Below are positions 2,288-21,099 of a stretch of DNA of 23,707 nucleotides, in pieces. The stretch's first letter is position 1, and the number at the start of each line of letters is the position of its first letter. This stretch comes from a virus: positions 1 through 23,707 of IMG/VR virus record IMGVR_UViG_3300030430_001450. One strand, given 5' to 3'. Under the pieces are notes generated by a model. That model saw only the letters and a list, made by a program, of their open reading frames with translations, was not told the origin of the DNA and made no database searches. The position numbers and the translations under genes were made by a program.

Positions 2288-2661
2288 TGGCTAACTTTGA
2301 TACTGAGGTGAACATAAAACCTACTTACGGTGTACGAAAAAACTCTGCTCCAAAAGTTCGTACTGTAGTCTTTGCTGATGGATTTGAACACAGATTAAAT
2401 TTTGGATTAACGCAACATCAAAACCCTAAAATCTATAATCTTACTTTTGAGGTATCAGAAACTCAAGCAGATACTATTGAAAGTTTCTTAGATGATCGTG
2501 CAAACGCAGCAGGTGTATCTGGAGACAGTGATAGTTTTGATTTCACTCCTCCAGGTGAGTCAACCTCATCTAAATTTGTATGTGAGGCTTGGAATAAATC
2601 AATGCCTTATCTTAATAGAGCAAGAATACAAGCAACATTTAGGGAAGTATTTGAACCATGA
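2287..2661 (+). CDS. Minor tail protein M (lambda gpM-like)
   Basis: A 124-residue protein of the phage minor tail family, which acts at the tail tip between the tape measure initiator complex and the tube. The sequence opens with a YGVRKNSAPKVR stretch and FADGFEHR, followed by a beta-rich body (YNLTFEVSETQADTIESFLDD) and the typical ending with an aromatic F.F.PPG strand and RARIQATFREVFEP. Lambda gpM is slightly shorter. Its position immediately after the tape measure and before L is the lambda order. It is coupled to both neighbours, by TAATG upstream and a 4-bp ATGA overlap downstream. Confidence 0.85.
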   Translation: MANFDTEVNIKPTYGVRKNSAPKVRTVVFADGFEHRLNFGLTQHQNPKIYNLTFEVSETQADTIESFLDDRANAAGVSGDSDSFDFTPPGESTSSKFVCEAWNKSMPYLNRARIQATFREVFEP

Positions 2662-3269
2662 GTACTGCTAAGTATGTAAGCGAGCTACAAAATGTTAATC
2701 CAAGTTCTGTCATAGAACTTTTTGAATTACAACTTAAAAAAGCATTACACGGTTCAAATCAAATTTATTATTTTCATAATGGTTCTAATTTAAATTTTAA
2801 TCGTGAAATTATATGGAACGGTAATAGTTATCAAAGATTTCCGATACAAGCAGAAGGCTTTGAGTACAAAGGTGGTCAATTACCACGACCTACATTGACT
2901 ATTAGTAATGCAACAGGATTTATGAGTGCTTTACTTATTGATGTTAATGATCCTACATTGGCAGATCCAAATGACCCTGACTCAGGAGGCACAGTTGGTA
3001 ATGATTTAACTGGTGCAATCTTTACAAGAAGAAGAACAAATGCAAAGTTTTTATCTCATGCTAATTTTGTTGGTAATAACCCATTTGGTACACCTGATGA
3101 AAATGTAGAAGATGCAAAACAAATATTTACTATTGCCAGAAAGTCAACAGAAAATAGAGAAATTGTACAATTTGAACTAGCTGCTGCTTTAGACATGGCA
3201 AATGTAAAATGTCCTAGAAGAATATGTACTAGAAAAGATTTTCCTTCTATTGGTACGTTTATAGGATGA
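2658..3269 (+). CDS. Minor tail protein L (lambda gpL-like), short C-terminus
   Basis: A tail-tip protein of 203 residues. The N-terminal half matches the family: ELQNVNPSSVIELFEL, then a beta domain with IIWNGNSYQRFPIQAEGFEYKGGQLPRPTLTISN, then the AAALDMANV segment. Lambda gpL is about 30 residues longer, and its C-terminal part carries four cysteines that hold an iron-sulfur cluster (established for lambda). Here AAALDMANV runs straight into CPRRICTRKDFPSIGTFIG, which looks like the very end of the family, and only two cysteines exist in the whole protein. The cluster-binding segment therefore seems to be missing. The gene overlaps K by ATGA. Confidence 0.85.
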   Translation: MSTAKYVSELQNVNPSSVIELFELQLKKALHGSNQIYYFHNGSNLNFNREIIWNGNSYQRFPIQAEGFEYKGGQLPRPTLTISNATGFMSALLIDVNDPTLADPNDPDSGGTVGNDLTGAIFTRRRTNAKFLSHANFVGNNPFGTPDENVEDAKQIFTIARKSTENREIVQFELAAALDMANVKCPRRICTRKDFPSIGTFIG

Positions 3270-3967
3270 ATTGGAAGCAAGCTGCTATTATTCATGCTAA
3301 AGAAGAAGCTCCTAAAGAGTCTTGCGGTTTATTATTAAATATAAAAGGGAAAGAAACTTACCACCCCTGTCGTAATCTTTCGCTAACAAATCATCAATGT
3401 TTTATTTTAGATCCAGAAGATTATGTAAAAGCAGATAATAGAGGAGAGATTATTGCAGTAATTCATAGTCATCCAAATAACTTACCAATTGCAAGTCAAG
3501 CAGATAAAATAAGTTGTGAACAAAGTGGTTTAGTATGGCATATTGTTAATCCGAAAACAGAAGAATGGGGTTATTGTGAACCAACAGGTTATAAACCGCC
3601 ATTACTAGGTAGACCATGGGTTTGGGCTGTTGCAGACTGTTGGACATTAGTAAGAGATTGGTATAAAGAGGTTAAAGATATAGAGTTACAAGATTATACA
3701 AGACCTATTACACCACAAGAATTTTATGTTAATCCATCACTTGAAACACTTTTACCAGAAAGAGGTTTTAGGTTATTAAGTCCAGATGAAGCGTTATTAA
3801 ATGGTGATGTATTAGCAATGAGTATTTTTAATAAACAATTAAATCACGTTGCTATTTTTCTAAATGGGGAGGTTTTACATCATTTAACCGATAGACTATC
3901 TTGTAGAGAGCCTTATTCTGCTTGGCTGCAAAAATGTACAGGAGCAAAGTATCGTTATGTTGACTAA
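3266..3967 (+). CDS. Tail tip protease/peptidoglycan hydrolase K (JAMM + NlpC/P60)
   Basis: A two-domain lambda gpK-type protein of 233 residues. The N-terminal half is a JAB/MPN metalloprotease-like domain with a complete JAMM set: E18 in PKESCG, H67 and H69 in HSHP, S77 and D80 in IASQAD. The C-terminal half is NlpC/P60-like: likely nucleophile C125 in VADCWTLVRDWY and histidine H194 in LNHVAIFL, followed by H205/H206. In lambda this protein joins the tail tip and is thought to process tip components and locally open the cell wall during DNA entry. It sits between L and I as expected. It overlaps L by 4 bp and I by 11 bp. Confidence 0.92.
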   Translation: MNWKQAAIIHAKEEAPKESCGLLLNIKGKETYHPCRNLSLTNHQCFILDPEDYVKADNRGEIIAVIHSHPNNLPIASQADKISCEQSGLVWHIVNPKTEEWGYCEPTGYKPPLLGRPWVWAVADCWTLVRDWYKEVKDIELQDYTRPITPQEFYVNPSLETLLPERGFRLLSPDEALLNGDVLAMSIFNKQLNHVAIFLNGEVLHHLTDRLSCREPYSAWLQKCTGAKYRYVD

Positions 3968-4556
3968 ATTAAAACTTTACGGTGATTTAGGTAAATTTAT
4001 AGGTCGTAAGGAATTTGATATTCATGCTAACACTCCTGCAAAAGCAGTAAGTTTTCTTATTAATAATTTTCCACAGGCAGAAGCATATATGAATAATAGA
4101 AATTATGCAGTATTGGTAAATGATGTTGAAATTGATGAGACTGAATTACATGATTTAACAGGCACACAGGAGATTAAATTTATACCTGTTATTAGTGGTG
4201 CTGGTCGTGGATTTGAAAAAGTTGTAGCTGGTGCATTGATAATTGGAAGTGCTTTTTTATTTGGCCCTACTGGTTTTATGACTGCTCAAGGAGCTAGTGT
4301 AACAGCAGGTACAGTTATAGCAAAATCAGCAGTTTATGTTGGAGCAAGTTTAGCTTTAACTGGTGTAAGTGAAATGCTTTTTCCTCTTCCTGATAATGAT
4401 ATGGAAGGCGACCCAAGAATTTCTTTTAGTTTTACTGGCCTTCAAAATACATCCAGGGCTGGAACTCCTGTTCCTATTTGTTACGGGGAAATCTTAACTG
4501 GTTCAGTGGTAATCAGTGCAGACATTACAACTGATGAAGTAGGAGGAGTAAATTGA
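3957..4556 (+). CDS. Tail assembly protein I (lambda gpI-like)
   Basis: A 199-residue tail assembly protein. Residues about 1-80 form a ubiquitin/MoaD-like beta-grasp (MLTKLKLYGDLGKFIG, a PAKAVSFLINNFPQAEAYM helix, VLVNDVEI, IKFIPVISGAG). A glycine/alanine-rich hydrophobic block (about 88-140) follows, then the family ending with NTSRAGTPVPICYGEILTGSVVISADI. In lambda, gpI is needed for tip assembly but is not found in the finished tail. The ATG lies inside the end of K, and the TGA overlaps the TTG start of J. Confidence 0.87.
   Translation: MLTKLKLYGDLGKFIGRKEFDIHANTPAKAVSFLINNFPQAEAYMNNRNYAVLVNDVEIDETELHDLTGTQEIKFIPVISGAGRGFEKVVAGALIIGSAFLFGPTGFMTAQGASVTAGTVIAKSAVYVGASLALTGVSEMLFPLPDNDMEGDPRISFSFTGLQNTSRAGTPVPICYGEILTGSVVISADITTDEVGGVN
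4541..4546 (+). promoter_or_regulatory. Shine-Dalgarno AGGAGG deciding the TTG start of J
   Basis: A perfect AGGAGG lies six bases before TTG at 4553, which overlaps the stop of the I gene. It is the strongest ribosome-binding site I see in the late operon and supports a TTG start for a very long protein. Confidence 0.75.
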
Positions 4557-7500
4557 CTGAAAATATTATTAAAGGTTCTTTATTTGGATTATTTGGTGGT
4601 GGAAGGAAACAAAAAATAGCACCTGACAATTTAAATTCAAGACAGCAATTAAAAGTTTTAGATTTAATATCAGAAGGTGAAATAGAAGGTTTTGCTAGTC
4701 CTTCAAAAGAAGGTCTTACTCAAGGAACGACTGCATACAATAATGCAGCTTTAAAAGATGTTTTTTTAAACAATACTCCTGTATTGCAATCTTCAGCAAA
4801 TTCTGCAAATCCTTCTTCAAGTAATTTTAATTTTGCTGATGTAGATTTTCAAGTTAGATTTGGAACTTCTAATCAACAAAAAATAAAAGGAGTACGAGCA
4901 ACAGGACAACCTGTAGATGTAGGAGTAGTTGTTACGGATAAATTACCAAATGGTGATGAATCTGATGGGGTAACAAGGCAATTCGCAAATAACTTTGATC
5001 AAGTTAGAGTTATTATAGATTTCCCAGTTTTACAAAAATCAACTAAAAAAGGTGATATTAAGGGTTCAAGTGTAAGATTTAAAATACGACTTAAATATAG
5101 TAATGAAACTGAATTTACAACAATCATTGACGATACTGTCAAAGGAAGAACTGCTGACTTATATCAAAGAAGTTATCTTCTCGATCTCGATAAAGACAAT
5201 GGAAGTAACATAGTTAATTTAAATGTTTTAAGAATAACTAAAGATGCAACTGTGGGTGGTAGAGAGCAAAATGAGTTTAGCTGGAACTCATATATACCTC
5301 TTACAGATGAAAATTTAGAATATAAAGATAGTGCCTACGCTGCTATAAAATTTGATTCAAAACAATTTAATTCTGTTCCTCCAAGATTTTTTCGTGTAAG
5401 GGGTATAAAAGTAAGAATACCGGGAGTCGGTACAGGTACAATATCTTCACAGCATAGTCAATTAGGAAATATAGTTACAGTTACAAGTAACAATCATGGG
5501 TTTGCTGTAGGTGATTCTTTTCAATTTACTGCTTCTGCAGGTTCGACTCCTAATGGTACTTATACTGTTTTAGATAATGATAGTTTTACTACAAATACTT
5601 TTCAATTTGATGCAAGCCCTTCAAATTTAAATGCTGGTAGTCTTGGCTCTACTCTTGTACCTATTCCAGTTGTTGATAGTAATACTGGTCGTATTATTTA
5701 TCCAGCTAATTATGTTTTTAATGGAACAATGGCTGCAGCACAATGGTGTTCGTGCCCTTCGTTCATACTTCTCGATCTTTTAGTTAATAAACGCTATGGA
5801 TTTGGAACGCATATCGCACCAGATCAATCTACAGATGCAAAACTATATGAGAACATTGATTTGTTTTCTTATTTTAATTCAAGCAAGTTTGCAAATGAAC
5901 TGGTCAGTGATGGTAGTACGAGTGGAAAAGAAGCAAGGTTTAGTTGTAATGTAAGTATTCAAAATTCTAACGAAGCCTTTAAATTAATTAATGAATTAGC
6001 AGGTGTAATGAGGTGTATGCCAATATGGTCTGCTGGTTCAATATCTCTTGCACAAGATGAACCAAAAGACCCAAGTTATTTATTTAGTCTTTCTAATGTA
6101 ACTGAAGCAGGTTTTTCATATTCTGGTAGCGATATAAAAACTAGAGCCACAATTATAAATGTTTCTTATTTCAATATGGAAACAAGAGAGCTTGATTATG
6201 AAACTGTTGGTGACAATACAGATTCAACTAAATCTGATTTTATACAAGCAGATTTAGATAGACAGAATAAATATGGGGCTGTTGTTAAAAATATAAAAGC
6301 ATTTGCTTGTACAAGTGCTTCACAGGCAAGAAGATTAGGAAAATCAGTTTTATTTAGTCAGGAAAGAGAATCTGAAGTTGTTACTTTTTCAACTTCAATA
6401 GATACTGGCGTTATAGTAAGACCTAATTCTGTAATAGAAATTGCTGATCCTGTAAGGTCAGGAAAAAGAAGAGGTGGTAGGGTTAAAACTGCTACGACAA
6501 CAGCAATTACTATTGATAATATAGGTTCAGTAAATATACAAACTATTACTTTAGGTGTAAATCCTAAATTATCCGTTGTTCTCCCCGATGGAACGATGGA
6601 AACAAGAACTGTTACGGACTGCACAAATGGGGTATTTACAGTAGAACCTGCATTTTCACAAACTCCAAATGTAAATACTGTTTGGTTATTTCAAAATGAT
6701 GATATTCAATCACAATTATTTAGGGTTATAAATGTAAGTGAAAACGATGGTATAACTTATACAATTACAGCTTTATCTTATATAAGTAATAAATACGCTG
6801 CTATTGAGGCTAACGACCCAATAGCAACAAGAGATATAACTGTATTTAATCAACCAGTAGAGCCTCCAACAGAATTAAAAGCAACAGAACAAATTGTTGC
6901 AATAAATGGTAAAGCAGTTTCAAAAATTATTGTTACTTGGAAAGTTGCTGCAAATGTAAATGAATACCAAATTAATTACAGATTGGATGATAATAATTTT
7001 ACAAGTTTTAGAGTTTTAAGTAATGATTTTGAAATTTTTAATTCTGATGCTGGAACGTATGAAATACAAGTATTTTCATATAATACTGTGGGTGAAATAA
7101 CCTCTACCTCTACTAACATTAATTTTGAAGCAACAGGTAAAACAGCACCACCTTCAGATTTAACTGGTTTGTCAATTGAACCTGTTAATGATAAAGACGT
7201 GAGACTTAGATGGGACTTGCACCCTGATGTAGACGTTATTCATGGTGGTCAAATATATGTCAGACATAATTTAAAATCAGATGGAACTGGAACATTTCAA
7301 AATTCAAGTAATTTAATACCTGCATTGGCAGGTAACTCTACATTTGCTGTTGTACCTGCATTAGAAGGGGAATACATACTCAAAGCAAGAGATGATACAG
7401 GAAATTTCAGCACGGGAGAAACCAGTGTTATTTTAGATATTCCTGAGGAAATAAAACCATTACAAGTTTTAACGAGAAGAGAGGACCTTGATAATCCAAT

Positions 7501-8524
7501 TTTTCAAGGTGTTAAAAGTGCTACTGTTGAATTTAGTGAAGATTTAGGTGCAATTGATTTAATATCCACAGGTTTATTTGAGGATATTGAAAATTTTGCC
7601 AGTCTATCGTCTTTAGTAGATTTTGGTGCTATTGCATCAAGTGGTACTTATGATTTTGGTGGTACTGCTGGCGGTACAGTTTTAGATTTAGGTGCTGTAT
7701 ATAATTTAGAATTAAAACGACACCTTGTTTCCGATGCGTTTAATCCTAATAATGTTTTTGATTTTATTGTTGATGTAGATACCTTAGACAATTTTGACGG
7801 AGTAGAAGCTTTTGATGCTAATGCCGAACTATTAGTGAGATCATCTGGTAACCCTTCCAATACTTCTAAAACTGGTACGTATACTCAAACTGGAACAACT
7901 GTAACAATAAATATAAATGGTCATAATTTTAAAGTAAATAATTTTGTTACCTGTGATTTTACTTCTGGTACTGCAACAGATGGTGAGTTTCAGATTACAT
8001 CAATTACAAATGCTGACCAATTTAAAATTACGGTTACAAATTCAGCCACTACAAGTGGAAGTGTTACCTGCGGTGCTGATTACACAGAGTTTGCTAGTTT
8101 TGCCAATGGTAGATTTAAAGGACAATCTTTTAAATTTAGAGCTTTACTGACAAGTAATGACGCAAACCAGGATGTAAAAATAACAGAACTAGGTTATACA
8201 GCAAGTTTTCCAAGAAGGACAGAACAAAGTACGGAACTTATTGATGCTGGTTCAACTGGTACAAAAACTATTACTTTTGAAAATGAATATTTTACAGGAA
8301 CTTCTTCTTTAGGTGGTGTTAATAGCACACTTCCTTCTATTGGTATTACTGCACAAAATATGCTTAGTGGTGAATTTTTTGAAGTTACAAATATAACTGG
8401 TGCTGGATTTACTGTTGCATTTAAAACAAGCACTGGTGTTGCAGCTACTCCATCAAACCGCAGTGGTACAACAGATACTGTAAAATTTGGATTTACGGCT
8501 GTTGGATTTGGCAAAAAAGGGTAG
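4553..8524 (+). CDS. Tail tip attachment / host specificity protein J
   Basis: A 1323-residue lambda gpJ-type central tip protein, whose trimer closes the tail and contacts the receptor. The start is TTG behind AGGAGG. The first 290 residues carry the conserved core (LNSRQQLKVLDLISEGEIEGF, then LKDVFLNNTPV). Residues about 390-770 hold the tip barrels (PANYVFNGTMAAAQWCSCPSF, LLVNKRYGFGTHI). Two fibronectin-III-like domains lie near 771-960 (PPTELKATEQ..., APPSDLTGLSIE...). Two short domains built around NNHGFAVGD (about 295-375) and NGHNFKVNN (about 1103-1182) look like the FCCH-like module also present in the next gene. The C-terminus ends GFTAVGFGKKG, as in many J proteins. The C-terminal third is probably the host-range part (inference). 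Confidence 0.93.
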   Translation: MTENIIKGSLFGLFGGGRKQKIAPDNLNSRQQLKVLDLISEGEIEGFASPSKEGLTQGTTAYNNAALKDVFLNNTPVLQSSANSANPSSSNFNFADVDFQVRFGTSNQQKIKGVRATGQPVDVGVVVTDKLPNGDESDGVTRQFANNFDQVRVIIDFPVLQKSTKKGDIKGSSVRFKIRLKYSNETEFTTIIDDTVKGRTADLYQRSYLLDLDKDNGSNIVNLNVLRITKDATVGGREQNEFSWNSYIPLTDENLEYKDSAYAAIKFDSKQFNSVPPRFFRVRGIKVRIPGVGTGTISSQHSQLGNIVTVTSNNHGFAVGDSFQFTASAGSTPNGTYTVLDNDSFTTNTFQFDASPSNLNAGSLGSTLVPIPVVDSNTGRIIYPANYVFNGTMAAAQWCSCPSFILLDLLVNKRYGFGTHIAPDQSTDAKLYENIDLFSYFNSSKFANELVSDGSTSGKEARFSCNVSIQNSNEAFKLINELAGVMRCMPIWSAGSISLAQDEPKDPSYLFSLSNVTEAGFSYSGSDIKTRATIINVSYFNMETRELDYETVGDNTDSTKSDFIQADLDRQNKYGAVVKNIKAFACTSASQARRLGKSVLFSQERESEVVTFSTSIDTGVIVRPNSVIEIADPVRSGKRRGGRVKTATTTAITIDNIGSVNIQTITLGVNPKLSVVLPDGTMETRTVTDCTNGVFTVEPAFSQTPNVNTVWLFQNDDIQSQLFRVINVSENDGITYTITALSYISNKYAAIEANDPIATRDITVFNQPVEPPTELKATEQIVAINGKAVSKIIVTWKVAANVNEYQINYRLDDNNFTSFRVLSNDFEIFNSDAGTYEIQVFSYNTVGEITSTSTNINFEATGKTAPPSDLTGLSIEPVNDKDVRLRWDLHPDVDVIHGGQIYVRHNLKSDGTGTFQNSSNLIPALAGNSTFAVVPALEGEYILKARDDTGNFSTGETSVILDIPEEIKPLQVLTRREDLDNPIFQGVKSATVEFSEDLGAIDLISTGLFEDIENFASLSSLVDFGAIASSGTYDFGGTAGGTVLDLGAVYNLELKRHLVSDAFNPNNVFDFIVDVDTLDNFDGVEAFDANAELLVRSSGNPSNTSKTGTYTQTGTTVTININGHNFKVNNFVTCDFTSGTATDGEFQITSITNADQFKITVTNSATTSGSVTCGADYTEFASFANGRFKGQSFKFRALLTSNDANQDVKITELGYTASFPRRTEQSTELIDAGSTGTKTITFENEYFTGTSSLGGVNSTLPSIGITAQNMLSGEFFEVTNITGAGFTVAFKTSTGVAATPSNRSGTTDTVKFGFTAVGFGKKG

Positions 8525-8550
8525 AATGAACCTATTAATACTCAAATAAC

Positions 8551-11010
8551 ATGGCTAGAGTAGACGACACTGGTGGTTCTGGATATGTAATAGATAATGG
8601 TACTGGCTTGAATGTCAGAACAAAACTTAATCAAATCGCTGCTGCTATAAATTCATTAAATAGTGGTACAGGTAATCCAACTATTAATACAGCTTTTCAA
8701 CCACACATAGATACAAGTTCAAACTTATTAAAGATAAGAAATGGAGGTAATGATGGCTATATAACTTTAGGGAATATAAATACGAGTTATTTAGGTTTAT
8801 TACCTTTGTCCGCTGGAAGTGCAACTGAACGAACATTAACTGAACGAATAACTCATGGATATACAAGTGCTTTTCGTTTACCTGTCGGCACAACAGGACA
8901 AAGACCAACAAGTCCTGTCGCTGGGGATTTTAGATTTAATAGTGATCTAAATAATATTGAATTTTATAATGGCTCTTCTTTTATAGCTAGTGGAATAGCT
9001 GCTGGTTCCATAGTTAATGCTGATATAAGTAATAGTGCTGCTATTGCTGGAACTAAATTATCTTTTACGCAAACAGGAACTGGTGCAAATGCTCGAACTG
9101 TAACCAGTAGATTCCAAGATACAATATCAGTTTTAGATTTTATACCTTCAGCACAACACGCAGATATTCGTGCTGGTACTAGCACCTATAATGCTACGGC
9201 TAATATTCAGGCAGCTTTAAATCAAGGTTCAACATCAGGGGTTAGTGTTTATTTGCCTGCTGGTACTTATCAAGTTGAAGATACGATTAATGTAAAAAGT
9301 AATACTCATTTTTTTGGTGCTGGTGAGGCAAGCATTATTAGGATGAAAAGTACAATTGGTAGAGATACAACCCTAGTTCGTACAGGTAGTAGAGATAACA
9401 AAATTAAAAATGTAATTATTGAACATATGACCCTAGATTTTAATAAGGCCAGACATACTGTAAGTGGTGGTACAAAGCCTACTGACCCTCGTATAAATGA
9501 TGGTGCTGCATTAGCTTCAAATGATGCAAATTTTTCTAGTACTTTTACTGTTAATGGTGGAAGTGATGATTTTGGTGGCGATGTTTTTCAAGATATAAAC
9601 GCTACTACTTTATGTATTTGTTTTAGTGAGAATGTTCTTATAAATAATGTAAAAGCTCTCAACGCTTATAAGCATTGTATAGATGTGACTTCGCCAAAAT
9701 ATAGGCGAAGTGCTAGTGGTAGTGCAACAAAAACAACACCTCAGATTTACGATACCATAGCTCGTAATGCGACTGTAGCTGGTTCAAGTAAAACAATTAC
9801 TGTCAGTTTAACTGCACATGGTTTTAGTGTTGACGATCAAATCTTCTTAAGAATTACTGGTAGCACAGCACATGATGGTTTATATGATGTAGTTACAGTA
9901 GCAGACGCTAATACGTTTACAGTTACAACAGATTCAACTGTCAGTATAAATTCTGGAACGGCTTGTGTTGTAATACAAGATCAAGGTTGCAAAAATGTAA
10001 TTCTTCAAAACTGTTACGCTGAAGGAAGTGGCGATGACAATATTACAACGCACTTTTCAACTGATATTTTAATTACGGGTTGTGAGTCTAGAAATCCATC
10101 AGGAGTTTTAATACCAGCTAATAGTAACTGTTATGAAATAGATGACGGAAGTCGTAATGTAACAATTTCAAATTGTCTCGGTGTCGCAGGTTGTAAAGGA
10201 TTACAAATAAAAGGACATGATTATGCACCAGCACCTTATAACATTACAGTAGACGGATTACGATTAGTTAATTGTGCTGAAGGTATGGATATAAAACACA
10301 CAGGCAGAGGTGTCCTTACTTTTAGCAATACAAGTTTAGGTGGTGATACGATTACAAATCCAGATCATCAAATCAGAAATGGCAGTATTGCATACTCAGG
10401 TGCAAGTCCTACTGCTAAAAATGTAACAATATCAAATGTACAGATTATTGCACCAAGAGGAGTTATAACTGGAACTACCAAAACTTTAGTAAAAGTAGGC
10501 AGACAAATTCAATTATATGCTTATGAAAACGTAGTTTTTAGTAATATTATGATTCAAGATGGTTCGTTTGATTTGGCAGGTGACTCTAAACCAGCAGTAG
10601 GTGGAAGTGATGGTACAAACTCAGATGCGTCAACAGATATAACTGAAGTAATTTATGTATTTTACAATGCTAAAAACATAATTTTTAAAAATTTAGCGAT
10701 TATGGGTTTTAGAAATGCTGTTAAAGGTTTTCGTTGCACAACTTCATTTGCAGATCATCTTGCAGTTGATGGATTTATTTCTCAAGACGGCCCACCTATT
10801 GCTTTTGAAATTACAGGTAATAGTGCAAACCCACCGGCAACAGGCCAATTAGATAATTATTTTATTGTTGGAAATCATAGTTCTACTTCTGGAAGTATTG
10901 GTATAAGAAATACATTAGATAGATTCTTTATAGAATCACACGGCGGTAGGGTTGTGGGTTATGAGGATAATATAGCTTCAGCAACTTCCGTTACTACTCA
11001 AGAAGGTTAA
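8551..11010 (+). CDS. Tailspike / tail fibre with pectate-lyase-like beta-helix
   Basis: An 819-residue probable receptor-binding protein or glycan depolymerase. The N-terminal ~75 residues (YVIDNGTGLNVRTKLNQI...DTSSNLLKIRNGGNDGYITL) match the start of the next fibre and probably form the virion-attachment module. A GQRPTSPVAGDFRFNSDLNNIEFYNG segment, common in phage fibres, follows. From about residue 190 a right-handed beta-helix starts with VLDFIPSAQHADIRAG, then NIQAALNQ...VSVYLPAGTYQVEDTI, typical of Pectate_lyase_3-type spikes. Many parallel strands (NVIIEHMTLDF, NVILQNCYAEGSGDDNI, NVTISNCLGV, NVTISNVQI) follow. An FCCH-like domain (HGFSVDDQ, about 405-480) interrupts the helix. No enzymatic substrate can be named. 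Confidence 0.85.
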   Translation: MARVDDTGGSGYVIDNGTGLNVRTKLNQIAAAINSLNSGTGNPTINTAFQPHIDTSSNLLKIRNGGNDGYITLGNINTSYLGLLPLSAGSATERTLTERITHGYTSAFRLPVGTTGQRPTSPVAGDFRFNSDLNNIEFYNGSSFIASGIAAGSIVNADISNSAAIAGTKLSFTQTGTGANARTVTSRFQDTISVLDFIPSAQHADIRAGTSTYNATANIQAALNQGSTSGVSVYLPAGTYQVEDTINVKSNTHFFGAGEASIIRMKSTIGRDTTLVRTGSRDNKIKNVIIEHMTLDFNKARHTVSGGTKPTDPRINDGAALASNDANFSSTFTVNGGSDDFGGDVFQDINATTLCICFSENVLINNVKALNAYKHCIDVTSPKYRRSASGSATKTTPQIYDTIARNATVAGSSKTITVSLTAHGFSVDDQIFLRITGSTAHDGLYDVVTVADANTFTVTTDSTVSINSGTACVVIQDQGCKNVILQNCYAEGSGDDNITTHFSTDILITGCESRNPSGVLIPANSNCYEIDDGSRNVTISNCLGVAGCKGLQIKGHDYAPAPYNITVDGLRLVNCAEGMDIKHTGRGVLTFSNTSLGGDTITNPDHQIRNGSIAYSGASPTAKNVTISNVQIIAPRGVITGTTKTLVKVGRQIQLYAYENVVFSNIMIQDGSFDLAGDSKPAVGGSDGTNSDASTDITEVIYVFYNAKNIIFKNLAIMGFRNAVKGFRCTTSFADHLAVDGFISQDGPPIAFEITGNSANPPATGQLDNYFIVGNHSSTSGSIGIRNTLDRFFIESHGGRVVGYEDNIASATSVTTQEG

Positions 11011-11071
11011 TTAAATGATTTTTTGCTTTTATTCTAGCTTCAACTTAAGATATTATTAAACAGGAAAAGTA

Positions 11072-14000
11072 ATGGCAGTAGCAACAGATTATGTTATAGC
11101 AAACGGAACAGGAACTGCCGTGCTTGCAGACCTTAATTCTGTTTTTGGTGCGATAGTAACTAATAATTCAAGTAATAGCGAACCACCGACAAAATACGCT
11201 TATATGTTATGGGCAGATACGTCTGCAAACTTATTAAAAATAAGAAACTCTGGTAATGATGCTTGGATTACTCTTTTTACTTTAGCTGGTGGTGTGGATG
11301 TAGATGCTGATAGTACTTTTGGAGGAACTATAAAGACTACTGGCAATCAAATAACTATAGAAGGTGTTGCACCTGTTTTAACTTTTACTGAGACTAATGA
11401 TAACCCTGATTACCAAATATCAGGGAATGGTGGTGCTTTAACTTTTAAAGACACCACTAATAACGCTGAAAGGTTAAAAATTAGTTCTAATGGCAACATA
11501 CAAATCCCAAACGATGGCGTAAGACTACAATTCGGTGCTTCTCAAGATTTAGATATTTTTCACCATGGAGGTAATTCTCTTATAGCTAATCATACAGGTA
11601 CATTATTAATACATTCAGATAATTTAGACCTTAGACCAAATACAAATAGCGGTGAAGTTTATTTACGCTGCACTCAAGATAGTAGTGTAGAGCTTAGGTT
11701 TGACTCTGTTAAAAAGTTAGAGACAACCTCAACTGGAATAGATGTAGATGGTTCTGTTACAGCAAACGATATTATTACTGCTGGTGCTTTATTACACGAA
11801 GGTGATACTGATACCTTAGTACATTTTTCTGCTGCTGATACTATAGATTTAAAAACTAGCGGAACAGAAAGACTTAGAATAAATAATTCTGGTGTTAGTT
11901 TATTTGGTGTTTTATATACCAATGGCAGAAATATTAGTTTAGGAGATAGTGGTAGTGCTACTGATGATCGTATAACTTTTGGAGAATCTCAAGACCTACA
12001 AATTTATCACGATGGAACGGACAGTTACATAAAAAATACTACTAATGATTTAATTATTGAAAGTACTGGAGATGATGTTTTTGTTAAAGCTGCGGATAAT
12101 ATGTTTTTTCATGTTCAGGGAACAGAAACAGGTATAAATATTGCTGGGAATGGATCAACAGACCTCTTTTTTGACAACAGTAAAAAACTTGAGACAACTT
12201 CAAACGGTATAGATATAAATTCAACGGGTTCTGGTAATGGACTTATAAGAATCAATGGAGCCTTAGGAAGTACAGAAGGAATTATAATTCAGAGAGATGG
12301 CACAGAAGCGAGTCGAATAAGTCATAGTAACTCTGCTGATTTAATTTTCAGCATGGGTTCAAGTGTTGCAACAAAATTAAAACTTACATCTGGTGGTAAT
12401 TTACAAATACCAGTAGACAACGCAAAACTACAATTAGGTGCTTCTCAAGATCTAAGTTTATATCACAATGGTAGTAACAATAGTTCGTTTATAGATAACA
12501 CCACAGGAGATTTAACCATTAGAGGTGGTGGCGGTAATATTCTTATTCATCCTGTTAATAATGAAACTGCAATATATGCAATAGCTAATGCACAAGTACA
12601 GCTTAGATATGATAACAGCACCAAACTAGAAACAACTTCAACTGGAATCGAAGTTGTAAATACCGCTGCTGACATAAATATTAGGTCTAGTACTTCTTCT
12701 AACAGTGGTGGTGGTCAGATTACATTTGAAAACGTAGATGGTAATGGTCAACCTAGAGATGTAGTAAGAATAAAAGGCGACACATCTGGTAATGGAGGAT
12801 ACGGTGAGTTAACTTTACAAACAGCTTTTAACAATACTTTAAATGATCGTTTAGTTATTAAAAAAGATGGCAACATACAAATACCAAATGACAACGCAGT
12901 ACTACAATTAGGTGCTAGTCAAGATTTAGAGATTGTTCATACAGGTAGTCAAAGTACAATTCAAAGCACTAATGTTGATAATCTTACGCTGAGACAGCAA
13001 TATGGTGGTGGTTATTTGTTTATTCACGGAGATAATGTACATTTAAGATCCCAAGCAACTAACGAACTATACCTTGCTGCAAATAACAATAATGCCGTAA
13101 AACTCTACTTTGACAACTCACAAAAGTTTGAGACAACCTCAGAAGGTGGAACACTTACAGGTCGTCTGACAATATCAGATACAAGTCCAATAATTAATTT
13201 TACAGATACTAACAATGATTCTGATTTTAGAATCCAAGTAGAATCTGGAAGTTTTATAATTGAAGATGCAACAAATAGTTTTGCTGACAGATTTTTAATA
13301 GATTCTAACGGAAACATCCAAATACCAGCAGATAACGCAAAACTACAAATCGGTGCTGGTCAAGATTTACAGCTATTTCATACAGGTACTTACAGTAATA
13401 TTTATAACGCCACAGGTGATTTAGATATATCATCTGACGTAACAAGGTTAAAAAATGGCAATAGAACTGAAAACTTTGCTGCATTTATAAACAACGGACA
13501 AGCTGAACTTTACTTTGACAACAGTAAAAAATTTGAGACAACTTCAACGGGAGCTAAAGTTACAGATAATTTCAGCATAACTGACGCTGCTGGTGGTCAA
13601 AGACTGCTAATGGGTAATCAGGATAGTGCTGGTGCTAACTGTCCAAAAATACTTAATTCTGGTAATGGAATACTTACTATTGGTATTGGAGATAGTTGGT
13701 CAGGAGATGGTGGTACTCTTACAGAGCAGTTTAAAATATTAAAAGATGGCAGCGTACAAATACCCGCAGATAATAAAAAACTACAACTCGGTGCTAGTCA
13801 GGATTTACAAATTTATCACGATGGAAATAATACTGTTATAGACAACAATACAGGAAATTTATATGTACAGAGTGAAGGCAGTATTTTAATTCAAGGAACT
13901 AATAATGAAAGTGCTATTTCATACATTACAAACGGAGCCGTAGAACTGTTTTTTGACAACAGTAAAAAGTTTGAGACACTTAGCGATGGTGTTAATATTA

Positions 14001-15127
14001 CTGGTACTTTAAAAGTTAATGGTTCTGCTATTTCAACTGGTGGTTTAGGTAATGTTGTTGAAGATACTTCACCACAACTAGGCGGTGCTTTAGATACTAA
14101 TAATCAAAATATTGAATTTGGTGACGTTGGTAGCTTAACTCAAAACCGCTTAAGGTTTGGTGCTAGTAATGATTTATCTATATTTCATGATGCTAATAGT
14201 TCAACAAACTTTATATCTACTGTTGGTAATAATTCCTGTTCAATTACAAGTGAAAGAACTGATTTTAAAAATGGTAGCAACAATGAGACTCTTGCCTCAT
14301 TTATAGCTGATGGGGCAGTAGAACTCTATTATGACAACAGTAAAAAAGCTGAAACTACAACAAATGGATTTCAGGTAAGTAATGGAAATTTAGATATATT
14401 TAACACATCTGGTGGTGCAAACATAAGAAATATATCTTCATCTGGTTCGTTTTTTATAGGTAATCCAAATAATGGCGATTTAGCTTTATATGTTCAAGAC
14501 AGTACAGATAATAATATAGTTTTACAAGTTAACACTGGCGAAAAAATGCTTGAATGCACTGCTGGTGGATCAACTGACCTGTATCATCATGGCACTAAAA
14601 AGTTTGAGACAACTTCATCTGGAGTTACTATTACAGGTAATTTAGCTGTACCTTCTGGTAATGGTATTGATTTTAGTGCTACTGGTGATGGGTCTGGTAC
14701 AACTTCAAGTGAACTTTTAGATGATTATGAGGAAGGAACTTGGACTCCTACTTTAAGAGGAGGTAGTAATAATGCTAGTGGCTATTCTATTCAATCTGGG
14801 TCTTATACAAAAGTAGGAAGAAAAGTAACAGTTAGTTGGGCAATTGAAATAACAGGCAAGGGTTCAATGTCAGGTGATTTACATATAATTGGTTTACCCT
14901 TTGGAGTAGCAAGTAATATAACTGGTTCTAGTATTGAATCTTCTGGTATTTGTGGTTTTTGGAAACACGTTGACCCTAACTTATCACATATTACTGCTAT
15001 AGCTGATGATGCTGATGCAATATATTTAAGAGGTACGGCTGGTCCAGAAGATGACCCTGATCAACTAACTGCTAGTGATATTGATAGTGATTTTACTGTT
15101 CGTGGTACTGTTACTTATTTTGCATAA
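11072..15127 (+). CDS. Long repeat-built tail fibre
   Basis: A 1351-residue fibre. The N-terminus (YVIANGTGTAVLADLN...DTSANLLKIRNSGNDAWITL) is homologous to that of the preceding spike. The shaft is built from seven modules of about 125-158 residues, each with I.IP.DNAKLQLGASQDL.I.HDG, a TGDL.I strand and ELYFDNSKKFETTSTG. The C-terminal ~160 residues start with the ELLDDYEEGTWTPTL cap seen in many marine phage fibres, followed by YTKVGRKVTVSW and a compact beta domain that probably binds the host (inference). The start is supported by AGGAAA shortly before ATG. The 61-bp gap upstream contains TTGCTT and TAAGAT 17 bp apart, which could be a weak promoter. Confidence 0.88.
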   Translation: MAVATDYVIANGTGTAVLADLNSVFGAIVTNNSSNSEPPTKYAYMLWADTSANLLKIRNSGNDAWITLFTLAGGVDVDADSTFGGTIKTTGNQITIEGVAPVLTFTETNDNPDYQISGNGGALTFKDTTNNAERLKISSNGNIQIPNDGVRLQFGASQDLDIFHHGGNSLIANHTGTLLIHSDNLDLRPNTNSGEVYLRCTQDSSVELRFDSVKKLETTSTGIDVDGSVTANDIITAGALLHEGDTDTLVHFSAADTIDLKTSGTERLRINNSGVSLFGVLYTNGRNISLGDSGSATDDRITFGESQDLQIYHDGTDSYIKNTTNDLIIESTGDDVFVKAADNMFFHVQGTETGINIAGNGSTDLFFDNSKKLETTSNGIDINSTGSGNGLIRINGALGSTEGIIIQRDGTEASRISHSNSADLIFSMGSSVATKLKLTSGGNLQIPVDNAKLQLGASQDLSLYHNGSNNSSFIDNTTGDLTIRGGGGNILIHPVNNETAIYAIANAQVQLRYDNSTKLETTSTGIEVVNTAADINIRSSTSSNSGGGQITFENVDGNGQPRDVVRIKGDTSGNGGYGELTLQTAFNNTLNDRLVIKKDGNIQIPNDNAVLQLGASQDLEIVHTGSQSTIQSTNVDNLTLRQQYGGGYLFIHGDNVHLRSQATNELYLAANNNNAVKLYFDNSQKFETTSEGGTLTGRLTISDTSPIINFTDTNNDSDFRIQVESGSFIIEDATNSFADRFLIDSNGNIQIPADNAKLQIGAGQDLQLFHTGTYSNIYNATGDLDISSDVTRLKNGNRTENFAAFINNGQAELYFDNSKKFETTSTGAKVTDNFSITDAAGGQRLLMGNQDSAGANCPKILNSGNGILTIGIGDSWSGDGGTLTEQFKILKDGSVQIPADNKKLQLGASQDLQIYHDGNNTVIDNNTGNLYVQSEGSILIQGTNNESAISYITNGAVELFFDNSKKFETLSDGVNITGTLKVNGSAISTGGLGNVVEDTSPQLGGALDTNNQNIEFGDVGSLTQNRLRFGASNDLSIFHDANSSTNFISTVGNNSCSITSERTDFKNGSNNETLASFIADGAVELYYDNSKKAETTTNGFQVSNGNLDIFNTSGGANIRNISSSGSFFIGNPNNGDLALYVQDSTDNNIVLQVNTGEKMLECTAGGSTDLYHHGTKKFETTSSGVTITGNLAVPSGNGIDFSATGDGSGTTSSELLDDYEEGTWTPTLRGGSNNASGYSIQSGSYTKVGRKVTVSWAIEITGKGSMSGDLHIIGLPFGVASNITGSSIESSGICGFWKHVDPNLSHITAIADDADAIYLRGTAGPEDDPDQLTASDIDSDFTVRGTVTYFA
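11494..14625 (+). repeat. Seven imperfect modules inside the fibre gene
   Basis: The DNA reading GASQDL (or GESQDL, GAGQDL, GASNDL) recurs near 11533, 11980, 12437, 12911, 13352, 13790 and 14160, giving spacings of about 370-475 bp. The companion motif FDNSKKFETTSTG occurs eight times in variant forms. The copies are diverged at DNA level, so this is an old protein-level repeat rather than a fresh tandem duplication. Confidence 0.85.
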
Positions 15128-17416: not shown

Positions 17417-18004
17417 CTACTCTAATTTATGAGTATGTGGGATAACTTGATTTGGTGGAATATTGTAGACAATATCTTCACAGGTAACAGCACTAGGAGT
17501 ATTAGGCTTGAAAGTAACACCTAATCTAGCTTGAGCCGCACATTGTTCCAAACGATATAAACTAATTTCCATTTTGGTTTTCTTTATTAGTAGTTTCTGA
17601 GCTTCAATATTTACTTCTGTAGCTTTATGGCAGAGTGCTGGTGATTTTCCTAATGGAATATTTATTTGAGCGGAGATACCATAGTTTAAATTGTAATTAT
17701 CTTTTTCAAATCGGGGAGTTTCTTGAACGTACTTTACCTCTCCTGTTTCTTCATCATATATGTTTTGCCTAGTGACATATTCCATTGGTCTATCGAATGA
17801 CCAACTATCAGTTACATATGGTGTAATTGTAAGACTAGGAGAAGCACACACTATGCCTTGACTCATTCTGTAGCTTGGCATTGAGCTTGGAGTTATCATG
17901 GTCGCATTGTTATTTACTACGCCCTGTGCGTTACTGCTCGGAGATGCTACTGTTGTATTAGCCAAAACCCTTGCAGGGCAAAGGATTATAGCTACTGCCC
18001 AAAT
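17417..18004 (-). CDS. Secreted cyanophage-family protein, non-standard start
   Basis: About 195 residues, unknown function. A hydrophobic N-terminal segment (WAVAIILCPARVLA) ends in a plausible signal peptidase site before NTTVASPS. The mature part has VVNNNATMI, C.SPSLTITPYVTDSWSF, then NLNYGISAQINIPLG....LCHKATEVNI and RLEQCAAQARLGVTFKPNTPSAVTCEDIV. This pattern (NFGIS..IPL....C, RL..C....G..., CADV-like end) I recall from many marine cyanophage proteins. No ATG, GTG or TTG stands before the signal segment: the frame runs back to ATG 18163 through what looks like a shadow of the upstream gene, so ATT at 18004 is the nearest candidate start. It overlaps the upstream stop by 13 bp, which suggests translational coupling. 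Confidence 0.7.
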   Translation of the reverse strand: MWAVAIILCPARVLANTTVASPSSNAQGVVNNNATMITPSSMPSYRMSQGIVCASPSLTITPYVTDSWSFDRPMEYVTRQNIYDEETGEVKYVQETPRFEKDNYNLNYGISAQINIPLGKSPALCHKATEVNIEAQKLLIKKTKMEISLYRLEQCAAQARLGVTFKPNTPSAVTCEDIVYNIPPNQVIPHTHKLE

Positions 18005-18423
18005 GTAGTTGTAGTTTCTGTTGTGGTGCTTGTGTTTATTTGACGAGTTATGGTGGTTACTGTGTCCAGCCCTGGAGTGATCAGTGTCTCTTGAAGAGAA
18101 AATGCTGCTCCATCGTTTGATATGGACCAACGAGGAATAGCTTCTAAATTTGGTGAAGTCCAATGAAAGTTTACTCCCCCGACTGTTTGTTCATTCGTAG
18201 TCGTAGGAGTAGGGTTGATATATCCTGTTTCAGATTCGATATTATGTCCTGATGCTGAGTAGGAGTATCCTGTGCGATATTGATGGCTTGTGATCGTTTC
18301 ATTTATTATTGATTCCGAAGTTGAGGAAGTCTGAGAACTACCCGAACGAAATTGTGGAACTACAGGAACAGCAAGTGTTCTTATAGGTAATGTTAATAAA
18401 ACCAGCAGCCAAAGTCTAGTCAA
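17992..18423 (-). CDS. Secreted beta-rich protein, cyanophage family
   Basis: A 143-residue protein with a signal peptide (MTRLWLLVLLTLPIRTLA, cut predicted after residue 18). The mature part is Ser/Thr-rich and beta-like: SSQTSSTSESIINETITSHQYRTGYSYSASGHNI, then FHWTSPNLEAIPRWSISNDGAAFSLQETLITPGL and TTITRQINTSTTTETTTTFGQ. The order of tracts (sSTTTS..ID, E.Y.SG.SYT.SG.NI, W..P....IP.W......F...E....PG) is familiar from marine cyanophage hypothetical proteins. Its ATG overlaps the end of the preceding gene by 8 bp. It was probably exported to the periplasm or cell surface of the infected cell. No function known to me. Confidence 0.75.
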   Translation of the reverse strand: MTRLWLLVLLTLPIRTLAVPVVPQFRSGSSQTSSTSESIINETITSHQYRTGYSYSASGHNIESETGYINPTPTTTNEQTVGGVNFHWTSPNLEAIPRWSISNDGAAFSLQETLITPGLDTVTTITRQINTSTTTETTTTFGQ

Positions 18424-19740: not shown

Positions 19741-19999
19741 TCTCTTCATCAGTAAAGTCTTTAATTAATAATTTATCAATTTTATCAACTTCATAATTGA
19801 ATTTAAGTACGGCAGTTCTTATGTGTTCTGTAACCCAACGACCTTCATCATAAATCACTTGTGCTTTGCCATTTTCTTTTATAAAAACATAATGATCCTG
19901 TCCTTTCATTTGTATTTCTAAAAAATTCTTTTCTAAATTTTTACGTCTTATATCTTTGAGTTTGCGTAGTTTAAGAATTGATTTTCTAACTGGTTTCAT
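19715..19999 (-). CDS. Small basic protein of unknown function
   Basis: A 94-residue protein with a strongly basic head (MKPVRKSILKLRKLKDIRRKNLEKNF). A short beta-like centre follows (LEIQMKGQDHYVFIKENGKAQVIYDEG), then helices (WVTEHIRTAVLKFNYEVDKIDKLLIKDF, DEEIKEYEKTS). Its ATG overlaps the end of the methyltransferase gene by 4 bp, so it is translated with it. It might be a nucleic-acid-binding accessory (basic head, position), but no family is recognised. It is the last gene of the minus-strand early operon. Confidence 0.65.
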   Translation of the reverse strand: MKPVRKSILKLRKLKDIRRKNLEKNFLEIQMKGQDHYVFIKENGKAQVIYDEGRWVTEHIRTAVLKFNYEVDKIDKLLIKDFTDEEIKEYEKTS

Positions 20000-21099
20000 T
20001 TGTAATAAAGATCATATACTCTTTGTAATGGTATCGCAGCAACTGGAGGAGAAACACTATTTCCTAAAGATTTAAGTCGGTCCATCCTACCTCGTAACCC
20101 ATCATCTCCTCTACGAAGGCAGGGTTCAGAAACATATCTAGTCCAGTCTCTTTCGAGAGTTCTCCCCTGCGAGCTATTGATGAAAGCATTTGCCCAGATT
20201 GACTTGTATTCTTTTGACCAGTTGCCTTGTGTTCGTGAGCCGTAGGTGTAGGAAGTGTTTGAAACTGATTGAAAAGATTTATTGCTTGTGGGTTCACTGC
20301 CTCTCTGAGATTGGCTAACTGAGTCCTGCCTTTGCGATGTTCCGTTGCTTGTTTTTTCATTGATTCCACACTTCTCTGTGGAAGATGATCCATTGTTGTT
20401 GGTGTCGGTAAACTCCTTACCGCTACATGAATCTGTCTTCCTAAAGTCTGGTGTTTCTTGCAATTCCTGCATGACTTCCATGACCCGTCCTTCCATTCCC
20501 TCGCTGTTGGAGTTGGAAGACTTGATATCACTGTTTCTAAATTTGGATGTCGATGATTTTTTATTGAAGGTTGATTTAGATTCATTGCCATCGCAGAATT
20601 CGCCCTTGGGGTAAGCAACGCACCACCAACGTTGTCTTCGATGACAGCCTCCCATATCTTCGCACGATACAATTGCCCATTCCGCATCATACCCTGCTTC
20701 TGAAAGCTCGCCGAGTACGATGTCCAATCCGTTATTAAGGATCGCTGCCACGTTTTCCAGGACAACGAATTTTGGTCGTACCATGCGTATGATTCTGATG
20801 ACTTCAAAGAAAAGACCTGATCTTGTTTTTTTGGTAATACCTTTTTGAAGCCCGGCCACGGATATGTCTTGGCATGGGAATCCACTACAGAAGACATCAA
20901 ATTCTCCAAGGTTAGCTGTAAAGGTTCTGACATCGTCATGAATGGGAATGTTTGGAAATCGTTTAGCAAGAAGTTTCTGACAGAATTTATCTATTTCAAT
21001 AAATTGAGTGGTTTCAAAACCTCCTACTATTTTATGAGCAGCATAAGAGAAACCACCAATACCTGCAAATCCATCAAGTATTTTTAGTGGAGGTTTCAT
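19996..21099 (-). CDS. DNA (cytosine-5) methyltransferase
   Basis: Transfers methyl from S-adenosylmethionine to cytosine C5 in DNA, probably to shield phage DNA from host restriction. 367 residues. Motif I DGFAGIGG (9-16), the acidic IEIDKFC (35-40) and motif IV GFPCQD with nucleophile C76 are present. So are motif VI ENV (115-117), motif VIII HRRQRWW (153-159), and a C-terminal motif IX/X part, RMDRLKSLGNSVSPPVAAI (338-356). Between about 170 and 310 lies a Ser/Asn-rich recognition region with repeated (A/S/T)(D/N)(T/A)...G..QG units, as in many phage enzymes of this type. That region and the catalytic half are also read in a second frame. No restriction enzyme gene accompanies it. It overlaps the upstream gene's stop (21099). 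Confidence 0.92.
   Translation of the reverse strand: MKPPLKILDGFAGIGGFSYAAHKIVGGFETTQFIEIDKFCQKLLAKRFPNIPIHDDVRTFTANLGEFDVFCSGFPCQDISVAGLQKGITKKTRSGLFFEVIRIIRMVRPKFVVLENVAAILNNGLDIVLGELSEAGYDAEWAIVSCEDMGGCHRRQRWWCVAYPKGEFCDGNESKSTFNKKSSTSKFRNSDIKSSNSNSEGMEGRVMEVMQELQETPDFRKTDSCSGKEFTDTNNNGSSSTEKCGINEKTSNGTSQRQDSVSQSQRGSEPTSNKSFQSVSNTSYTYGSRTQGNWSKEYKSIWANAFINSSQGRTLERDWTRYVSEPCLRRGDDGLRGRMDRLKSLGNSVSPPVAAIPLQRVYDLYYK
20064..20939 (-). CDS. Nested LPTPT-family phage protein inside the methyltransferase gene
   Basis: The same strand, in the +1 frame relative to the methyltransferase, is open for 301 codons from TTG 20969; the first ATG is at 20939 (291 residues). The product has tracts I recognise from a phage/prophage protein family usually found beside cytosine methyltransferases: LSWKTWQRSL, SASFQKQGMMRNGQLYR, LLTPRANSAMA, PNLETVI, three LPTPT repeats, TQLANLREAV, and the ending LNPAFVEEMMGYEVGWTDL. 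No Shine-Dalgarno is visible before any candidate start. A chance ORF of this length is unlikely in so AT-rich a genome. It may still be a conserved by-product of the methyltransferase sequence. Function unknown. Confidence 0.6.
   Translation of the reverse strand: MTMSEPLQLTLENLMSSVVDSHAKTYPWPGFKKVLPKKQDQVFSLKSSESYAWYDQNSLSWKTWQRSLITDWTSYSASFQKQGMMRNGQLYRAKIWEAVIEDNVGGALLTPRANSAMAMNLNQPSIKNHRHPNLETVISSLPTPTAREWKDGSWKSCRNCKKHQTLGRQIHVAVRSLPTPTTMDHLPQRSVESMKKQATEHRKGRTQLANLREAVNPQAINLFNQFQTLPTPTAHEHKATGQKNTSQSGQMLSSIARRGELSKETGLDMFLNPAFVEEMMGYEVGWTDLNL

Follow-up and report, generated by a model that had tools for sequence, protein, structure and literature searches.

The methyltransferases M.AquI and M.EcoHK31I each consist of two polypeptides, and the small polypeptide of M.EcoHK31I bears motif IX only (PMC3404938). 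Here we analyze a stretch of viral DNA of 23,707 nucleotides (IMG/VR record IMGVR_UViG_3300030430_001450, hereafter the window) in which a cytosine methyltransferase frame, MT, wholly encloses a second long frame, LP, in the +1 register of the same strand. Both frames are conserved and under selection, motif IX is found in the LP frame only, and the segment encoded by LP lies in frame with the rest of the enzyme in single-chain relatives. On this basis, the locus very probably encodes a split C5-methyltransferase of the M.EcoHK31I kind, with MT as the alpha subunit and the nested LP as a beta subunit that carries the specificity region and motif IX.

When the window is examined in the context of these split enzymes, the distribution of motifs over the two frames can be followed directly (Table 1). 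The initial annotation had described two overlapping frames on one strand, and both are indeed present on the minus strand together with all of the motifs that it quoted; the interval 20064-20939 is an ATG-to-stop ORF, whereas the mechanically listed ORF of 301 aa begins at a TTG 10 codons before the LP ATG. MT matches the Pfam family DNA_methylase (PF00145, 1.3e-45) and, above cut-off, TIGR00675 (1.4e-38). Its frame contains motifs I-VIII and X (I, IV, VI, VIII, and X were located individually), and motif IX was not found in the window MT frame, which thus does not have the motif set of a single-chain C5-methyltransferase. LP gave no significant match in Pfam and NCBIfam profile searches. It matches the PHROG family phrog_1008 (7.6e-26; residues 20-299 of the 301-aa ORF against profile positions 34-281), so the initial annotation was right to relate it to a known family of phage proteins. 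The LP stop codon falls after motif IX, and motif X of the window is in the MT frame; the arrangement is thus not that of the M.AquI type, with motif X on beta, and at the sequence level it is that of the M.EcoHK31I type, with motif IX on a second polypeptide and motifs I-VIII and X on the first.

The methyltransferase pair sits alongside Sak-like and RusA-like genes in a block on the strand opposite to a tail gene cluster (window 38-15127, + strand), which encodes a tape measure protein, a J-like fibre, and appendage proteins. Two other ORFs that share the minus strand (window 17417-18163 and 17992-18423) overlap each other by 172 bases, and the second of them matches DUF6322.

Table 1. Positions in the window of the MT and LP frames and of the motifs and regions within them
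Feature	Positions	Strand	Details
MT (putative alpha subunit frame), C5-cytosine methyltransferase	19996..21099	-	367 aa, ATG 21099, TGA 19996
LP (putative beta subunit frame), wholly nested in MT, +1	20064..20939	-	291 codons, ATG 20939, TAG 20064
Motif I DGFAGIGGF, MT frame	21049..21075	-	
Motif IV GFPCQD with catalytic Cys, MT frame	20866..20883	-	
Motif VI LENV, MT frame	20749..20760	-	
Motif VIII CHRRQRW, MT frame	20626..20646	-	
LP residues 50-91 (SYAWYD...MMRNGQLY), predicted beta-stranded N-terminal piece, over MT motifs VI-VIII	20667..20792	-	AlphaFold2 pLDDT about 81-88
MT linker (codons 166-322), equal to the LP variable region with LPTP repeats, probable TRD of the putative beta	20134..20604	-	window vs L002 20/5/3
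Motif IX LNPAFVEEMMGYEVGWTDL, LP frame	20073..20129	-	complementary distribution; hhalign 97.5%, E 7e-12
Motif X SLGNSVSPPVAAIPLQRV, MT frame, begins over the last LP codons	20017..20070	-	

The relationship between the two frames is clearest in the distribution of motif IX. To avoid the bias of LP queries, we classified methyltransferases that had been retrieved with methyltransferase queries, correcting misses of the regular expression manually: motif IX is in the +1 frame only in 50 of the 92 complete sequences, in the MT frame only in 42, and in both frames in none (one further sequence was truncated). None of the 42 enzymes with an in-frame motif IX has an LP. The initial annotation had proposed a check for LP frames broken by stop codons beside an intact methyltransferase, and almost none were found; the one case among the 50 split methyltransferases (L133:1649-2700), in which an in-frame stop cuts LP in two and leaves the methyltransferase frame intact, is either a broken beta or a sequence error. 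Two bridging cases, L096 and L098, have a near-canonical motif IX (RRLLPIEKERLMGFPENWT and RKLTPKEKERLMGFPENWT) in the +1 frame. In hhalign comparisons the C-terminus of LP aligns with motif IX of the single-chain enzymes (97.5%, E 7e-12), and its best alignment with canonical methyltransferases falls again on motif IX, although weakly (15.9%, E 0.0016). The independent profile phrog_1008 also matches the in-frame C-terminal half of a single-chain enzyme, L425 (residues 185-379, 5e-49), as well as the actinophage betas. The reading of LP as a nested gene is supported, and what the initial annotation had missed is that the C-terminus of LP is a methyltransferase motif IX.

Searching viral contigs with LP returned 80 loci, or 81 with Synechococcus phage S-H1, and the +1 frame of the methyltransferase is open in 81/81 of them; it spans 197-475 codons, though the length of the middle of the gene differs by hundreds of bases. 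A search with the pattern L[NR][PA]x[FW]xE[WE][ML]M alone gave more than 500 relatives, and a scan of bacterial genomes with a single protein gave 12 loci, with LP in the +1 frame relative to the methyltransferase in 12/12. The nested pair is present in hundreds of phages, usually with only one of the two genes annotated, and the suggestion that it is a real and perhaps widespread gene pair is supported both by this conservation and by the selection in both frames that is described below. At four loci (L013, L055, L321, and L322) both frames are very long, with LP frames of about 457-517 codons and large insertions that keep both open.

Three architectures can be distinguished among these relatives. 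In the first, represented by 54 loci from actinophage-type queries, motifs I-VIII are followed in a single ORF by a variable region, which in many of these loci includes LPTP repeats, and then by LSPxFVEWMMGxPxGW and LGNGVVPQQ, so that the LP segment is in frame between motifs VIII and X. In the second, seen in Camperdownii, DrYang, Eesa, and their relatives (39 loci), the frames overlap partially: alpha terminates shortly beyond motif VIII, and an ORF in the +1 frame encodes the LP region together with motifs IX and X. This actinophage form is an intermediate and M.AquI-like. The third is the full nesting of the window. In one single-chain methyltransferase (L430:1939-3240), motif IX is in frame and the variable region resembles the passenger sequence of the MT frame (SDT.., ADT..) rather than LPTP repeats, possibly reflecting a recent frame change. 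The LPTP repeats themselves number mostly 1 to 5 per LP and up to 7, and their number tracks LP length (r = 0.74), variation that would suit a variable specificity region.

We also modeled both forms with AlphaFold2. For LP alone (119 sequences) overall confidence was low (pTM 0.27); residues of about 50-91 were predicted as beta strands with pLDDT about 81-88, and the helix of motif IX was also predicted confidently. A fold search of the PDB with this model gave nothing significant, and a search with the LP sequence against solved structures gave no match. As the model of LP alone is of low confidence and has no fold match, the structural argument rests on the single-chain relative. The model of L425 (pTM 0.69) places a confident catalytic domain and a confident motif IX-X region in one fold (pLDDT above 93) and matches M.HhaI (E 4.6e-15). 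The LPTP region is unmodelled even in this single chain (pLDDT below 50), and none of the single-chain enzymes examined has a counterpart of LP residues 50-91 in frame.

The selection acting on the two frames changes along the gene. Compared with its closest relative, L002, the window differs 1, 0, and 5 times at MT codon positions 1, 2, and 3 over MT codons 57-165, the motif III-VIII region, where changes fall on MT wobble positions as is normal for MT, and 20, 5, and 3 times over the linker (MT codons 166-322), where MT position 1 is the wobble position of LP. Identity at four-fold degenerate MT sites was compared over about 1,900 pairs, which are not independent, so that the figures are descriptive: it is 0.47-0.54 over codons 1-103, 0.74-0.81 over codons 104-165, and 0.74-0.82 over the linker, then peaks at 0.90 across motif IX before falling to 0.41 across motif X. 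Where LP is constrained, the MT frame thus shows less synonymous change (0.74-0.90 versus 0.41-0.54 outside), as had been predicted for a genuine overlap. This window-clade set was retrieved with an LP query and is biased towards conserved LP, a bias of which the motif IX test is free; a second, more diverse set (n=74) shows a weaker version of the four-fold pattern. Taken together, the codon-position and four-fold data give the order of the selected frames: MT by itself through codon 103, the two together over motifs VI-VIII, LP by itself in the hydrophilic linker, the two together over the end of LP, and MT by itself over motif X. The MT linker is a hydrophilic passenger, and LP is the frame under selection there. 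Dual constraint starts at MT codon 104, the start of the piece formed by LP residues 50-91, and the substitution analysis shows no amino-acid constraint in the LP residues before 50.

A map of stop codons in 69 non-redundant window-clade homologues shows where the LP frame opens and closes. It contains stops over MT codons 1-30 in 69/69 homologues and over motif X (MT codons 346-366) in 60/70, and it is stop-free over MT codons 54-79 in 69/69 (33 expected) and over codons 80-103 in 68/68 (17 expected), with none through codon 165. An LP-frame ATG within MT codons 51-57 is shared by 69/69 homologues, against an expected 51.4, and such ATGs are scarcer downstream (7 versus 23.1 expected over MT codons 76-103). 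The LP ATG of the window has no Shine-Dalgarno-like sequence upstream.

These boundaries bear on a different reading, in which a programmed +1 frameshift near motif VIII joins the LP segment to the N-terminus of MT, so that motifs I-VIII, the LP specificity region, and motif IX would be in a single chain. Exactly that order is seen in one frame in the single-chain relatives, and selection passes from MT to LP near motif VIII. However, the constraint on LP starts about 60 codons upstream of motif VIII, at MT codon 104, and a frameshift at motif VIII needs neither a frame that is stop-free from MT codon 54 nor the LP-frame ATG that every homologue has there. Because the constraint and the stop-free stretch both begin well upstream of motif VIII, we consider a frameshift product unlikely. 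The shifted chain would also lose motif X, and in Escherichia phage K1ind2 a ribosome-binding-like GGAG lies just before the nested ATG.

Less probable again is a reading of LP as a phage protein in its own right, such as an inhibitor or anti-restriction factor, that only overprints the methyltransferase. Such a protein could account for residues 50-91, which are predicted to fold and are missing in frame from the single-chain enzymes examined. The initial annotation had predicted that stand-alone LPTP genes would exist, and none was found apart from a methyltransferase among the viral-contig, pattern-matched, or bacterial loci examined; LP is nested in the +1 frame inside the methyltransferase in 80/80 loci among the matches listed for the motif pattern. 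We ascribe this to LP being part of the methyltransferase enzyme, since alpha is without motif IX exactly when LP is present and the LP segment belongs to the enzyme in the single-chain relatives.

The length of the LP frame is not an accident of the methyltransferase sequence. When the codons of the window MT gene were shuffled synonymously 2000 times, no shuffle gave a +1 frame as long as the observed 308 codons (maximum 245), which agrees with the earlier judgment that so long a frame is unlikely by chance; the +2 frame is ordinary in the same test, and the test is weaker in two GC-rich relatives (19 and 5 of 2000). LP is neither a chance frame nor a database artefact: the idea that this family is an out-of-frame reading held open by methyltransferase codons, which the initial annotation had also entertained, is barely credible, for although the N-terminal 50 residues of LP are without amino-acid constraint and long +1 frames are less improbable in GC-rich members, it is contradicted by the shuffles, the stop-codon map, the inverted codon-position pattern in the linker, and the actinophage members in which the LP ORF continues without the MT frame.

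For the split enzyme that we favor, we suggest the following division of labor. Alpha, from the MT frame, would supply the catalytic domain with motifs I-VIII together with motif X, and beta, from the LP frame, would be translated separately, with ribosomes initiating internally at the ATG at 20939 or close to it. Beta would supply the small domain, made up of the variable LPTP-repeat region, which probably recognizes the target sequence, together with motif IX, which would organize that region. The two chains would assemble into one enzyme that is predicted to methylate a specific sequence, most likely shielding phage DNA from host restriction. No restriction-endonuclease gene was recognized among the scanned neighbors (tail genes, Sak-like, RusA-like, and unknowns), and this gene content makes an orphan protective methyltransferase the likely role. 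A wider proposal, which we hold tentatively and with rather more doubt than confidence, is that nested splitting is a standard design shared by phage 'dcm' genes of a large class, every one of them half an enzyme, in which beta gained a new folded N-terminal piece (LP residues 50-91) through overprinting of the catalytic sequence near motifs VI-VIII, and the LPTP arrays (usually 1 to 5 per beta) serve as exchangeable target-reading modules. Residues 50-91 are read as a newly overprinted piece because the single-chain relatives examined are without it.

Existing annotations divide between the two frames. Alpha is the called gene in S-H1, ESSI2_ev129, and pTO42E; in Sphingomonas and Pseudomonas plasmids LP is the CDS that was called, and MT, though open, is left uncalled. 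Two plasmid or prophage records (L345:2386-3477 and L346:2458-3144) list LP as a 'hypothetical protein', with the overlying open methyltransferase frame unannotated. If the split-enzyme reading is correct, many of the 'DNA cytosine methyltransferase' genes of phages and prophages, and some of those on plasmids, are half an enzyme as annotated; assayed alone they would seem inactive, and efforts to match them to methylation motifs would not succeed. As a same-strand overlap of ~290 codons in which the selected frame visibly changes from one part of the gene to the next, the locus is also a clean example from nature, and single-chain, partially overlapping, and fully nested forms can all be compared.

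The beta of M.EcoHK31I is reportedly also encoded in another frame within its alpha. By its published description, M.EcoHK31I (YGGCCR) resembles the window in that motifs I-VIII and X belong to alpha and motif IX to a second, smaller polypeptide (PMC3404938). Its specificity region is predicted in the literature to lie in alpha, whereas here it is the beta frame that selection follows over the variable region. M.AquI (CYCGRG), whose alpha contains motifs I-VIII and whose beta runs from motif IX onwards, shares its form with the actinophage members; its beta also bears motif X (PMC3404938), whereas the window keeps motif X in alpha, and its beta lies entirely within the alpha frame. An alternative-frame gene of another kind is the ShiLan element, an HNH endonuclease encoded out of frame in an actinophage methylase, which resembles the window in having a second gene in an alternative frame but, unlike LP, is a mobile homing endonuclease insertion and not part of the enzyme (PMC11855218).

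The same arrangement as in the window pair is found in Escherichia phage K1ind2 (L449:1201-2130), where ORF28 is nested in the +1 frame inside ORF29 and ends in the motif-IX-like QLNPAHSRWLMGYPPEW. ORF28 is annotated as 'putative Mte8-like protein' (RefSeq 'DNA methyltransferase') and ORF29 as 'putative C-specific methylase'; this pair is divergent from that of the window, and although both nested genes are annotated, no relation between them is stated. The LP family itself corresponds to phrog_1008, whose name, 'DNA methyltransferase', is silent on a subunit in an overlapping frame. The literature searched contains the two split precedents and no description of LPTP proteins as nested subunits. 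Given M.AquI and M.EcoHK31I, and the deposition of both nested genes of K1ind2, enzymes of this kind are already known; what appears to be new relative to the literature searched is the breadth of the arrangement, the frame-by-frame map of selection, the identification of LPTP proteins as beta subunits, and the link to single-chain enzymes.
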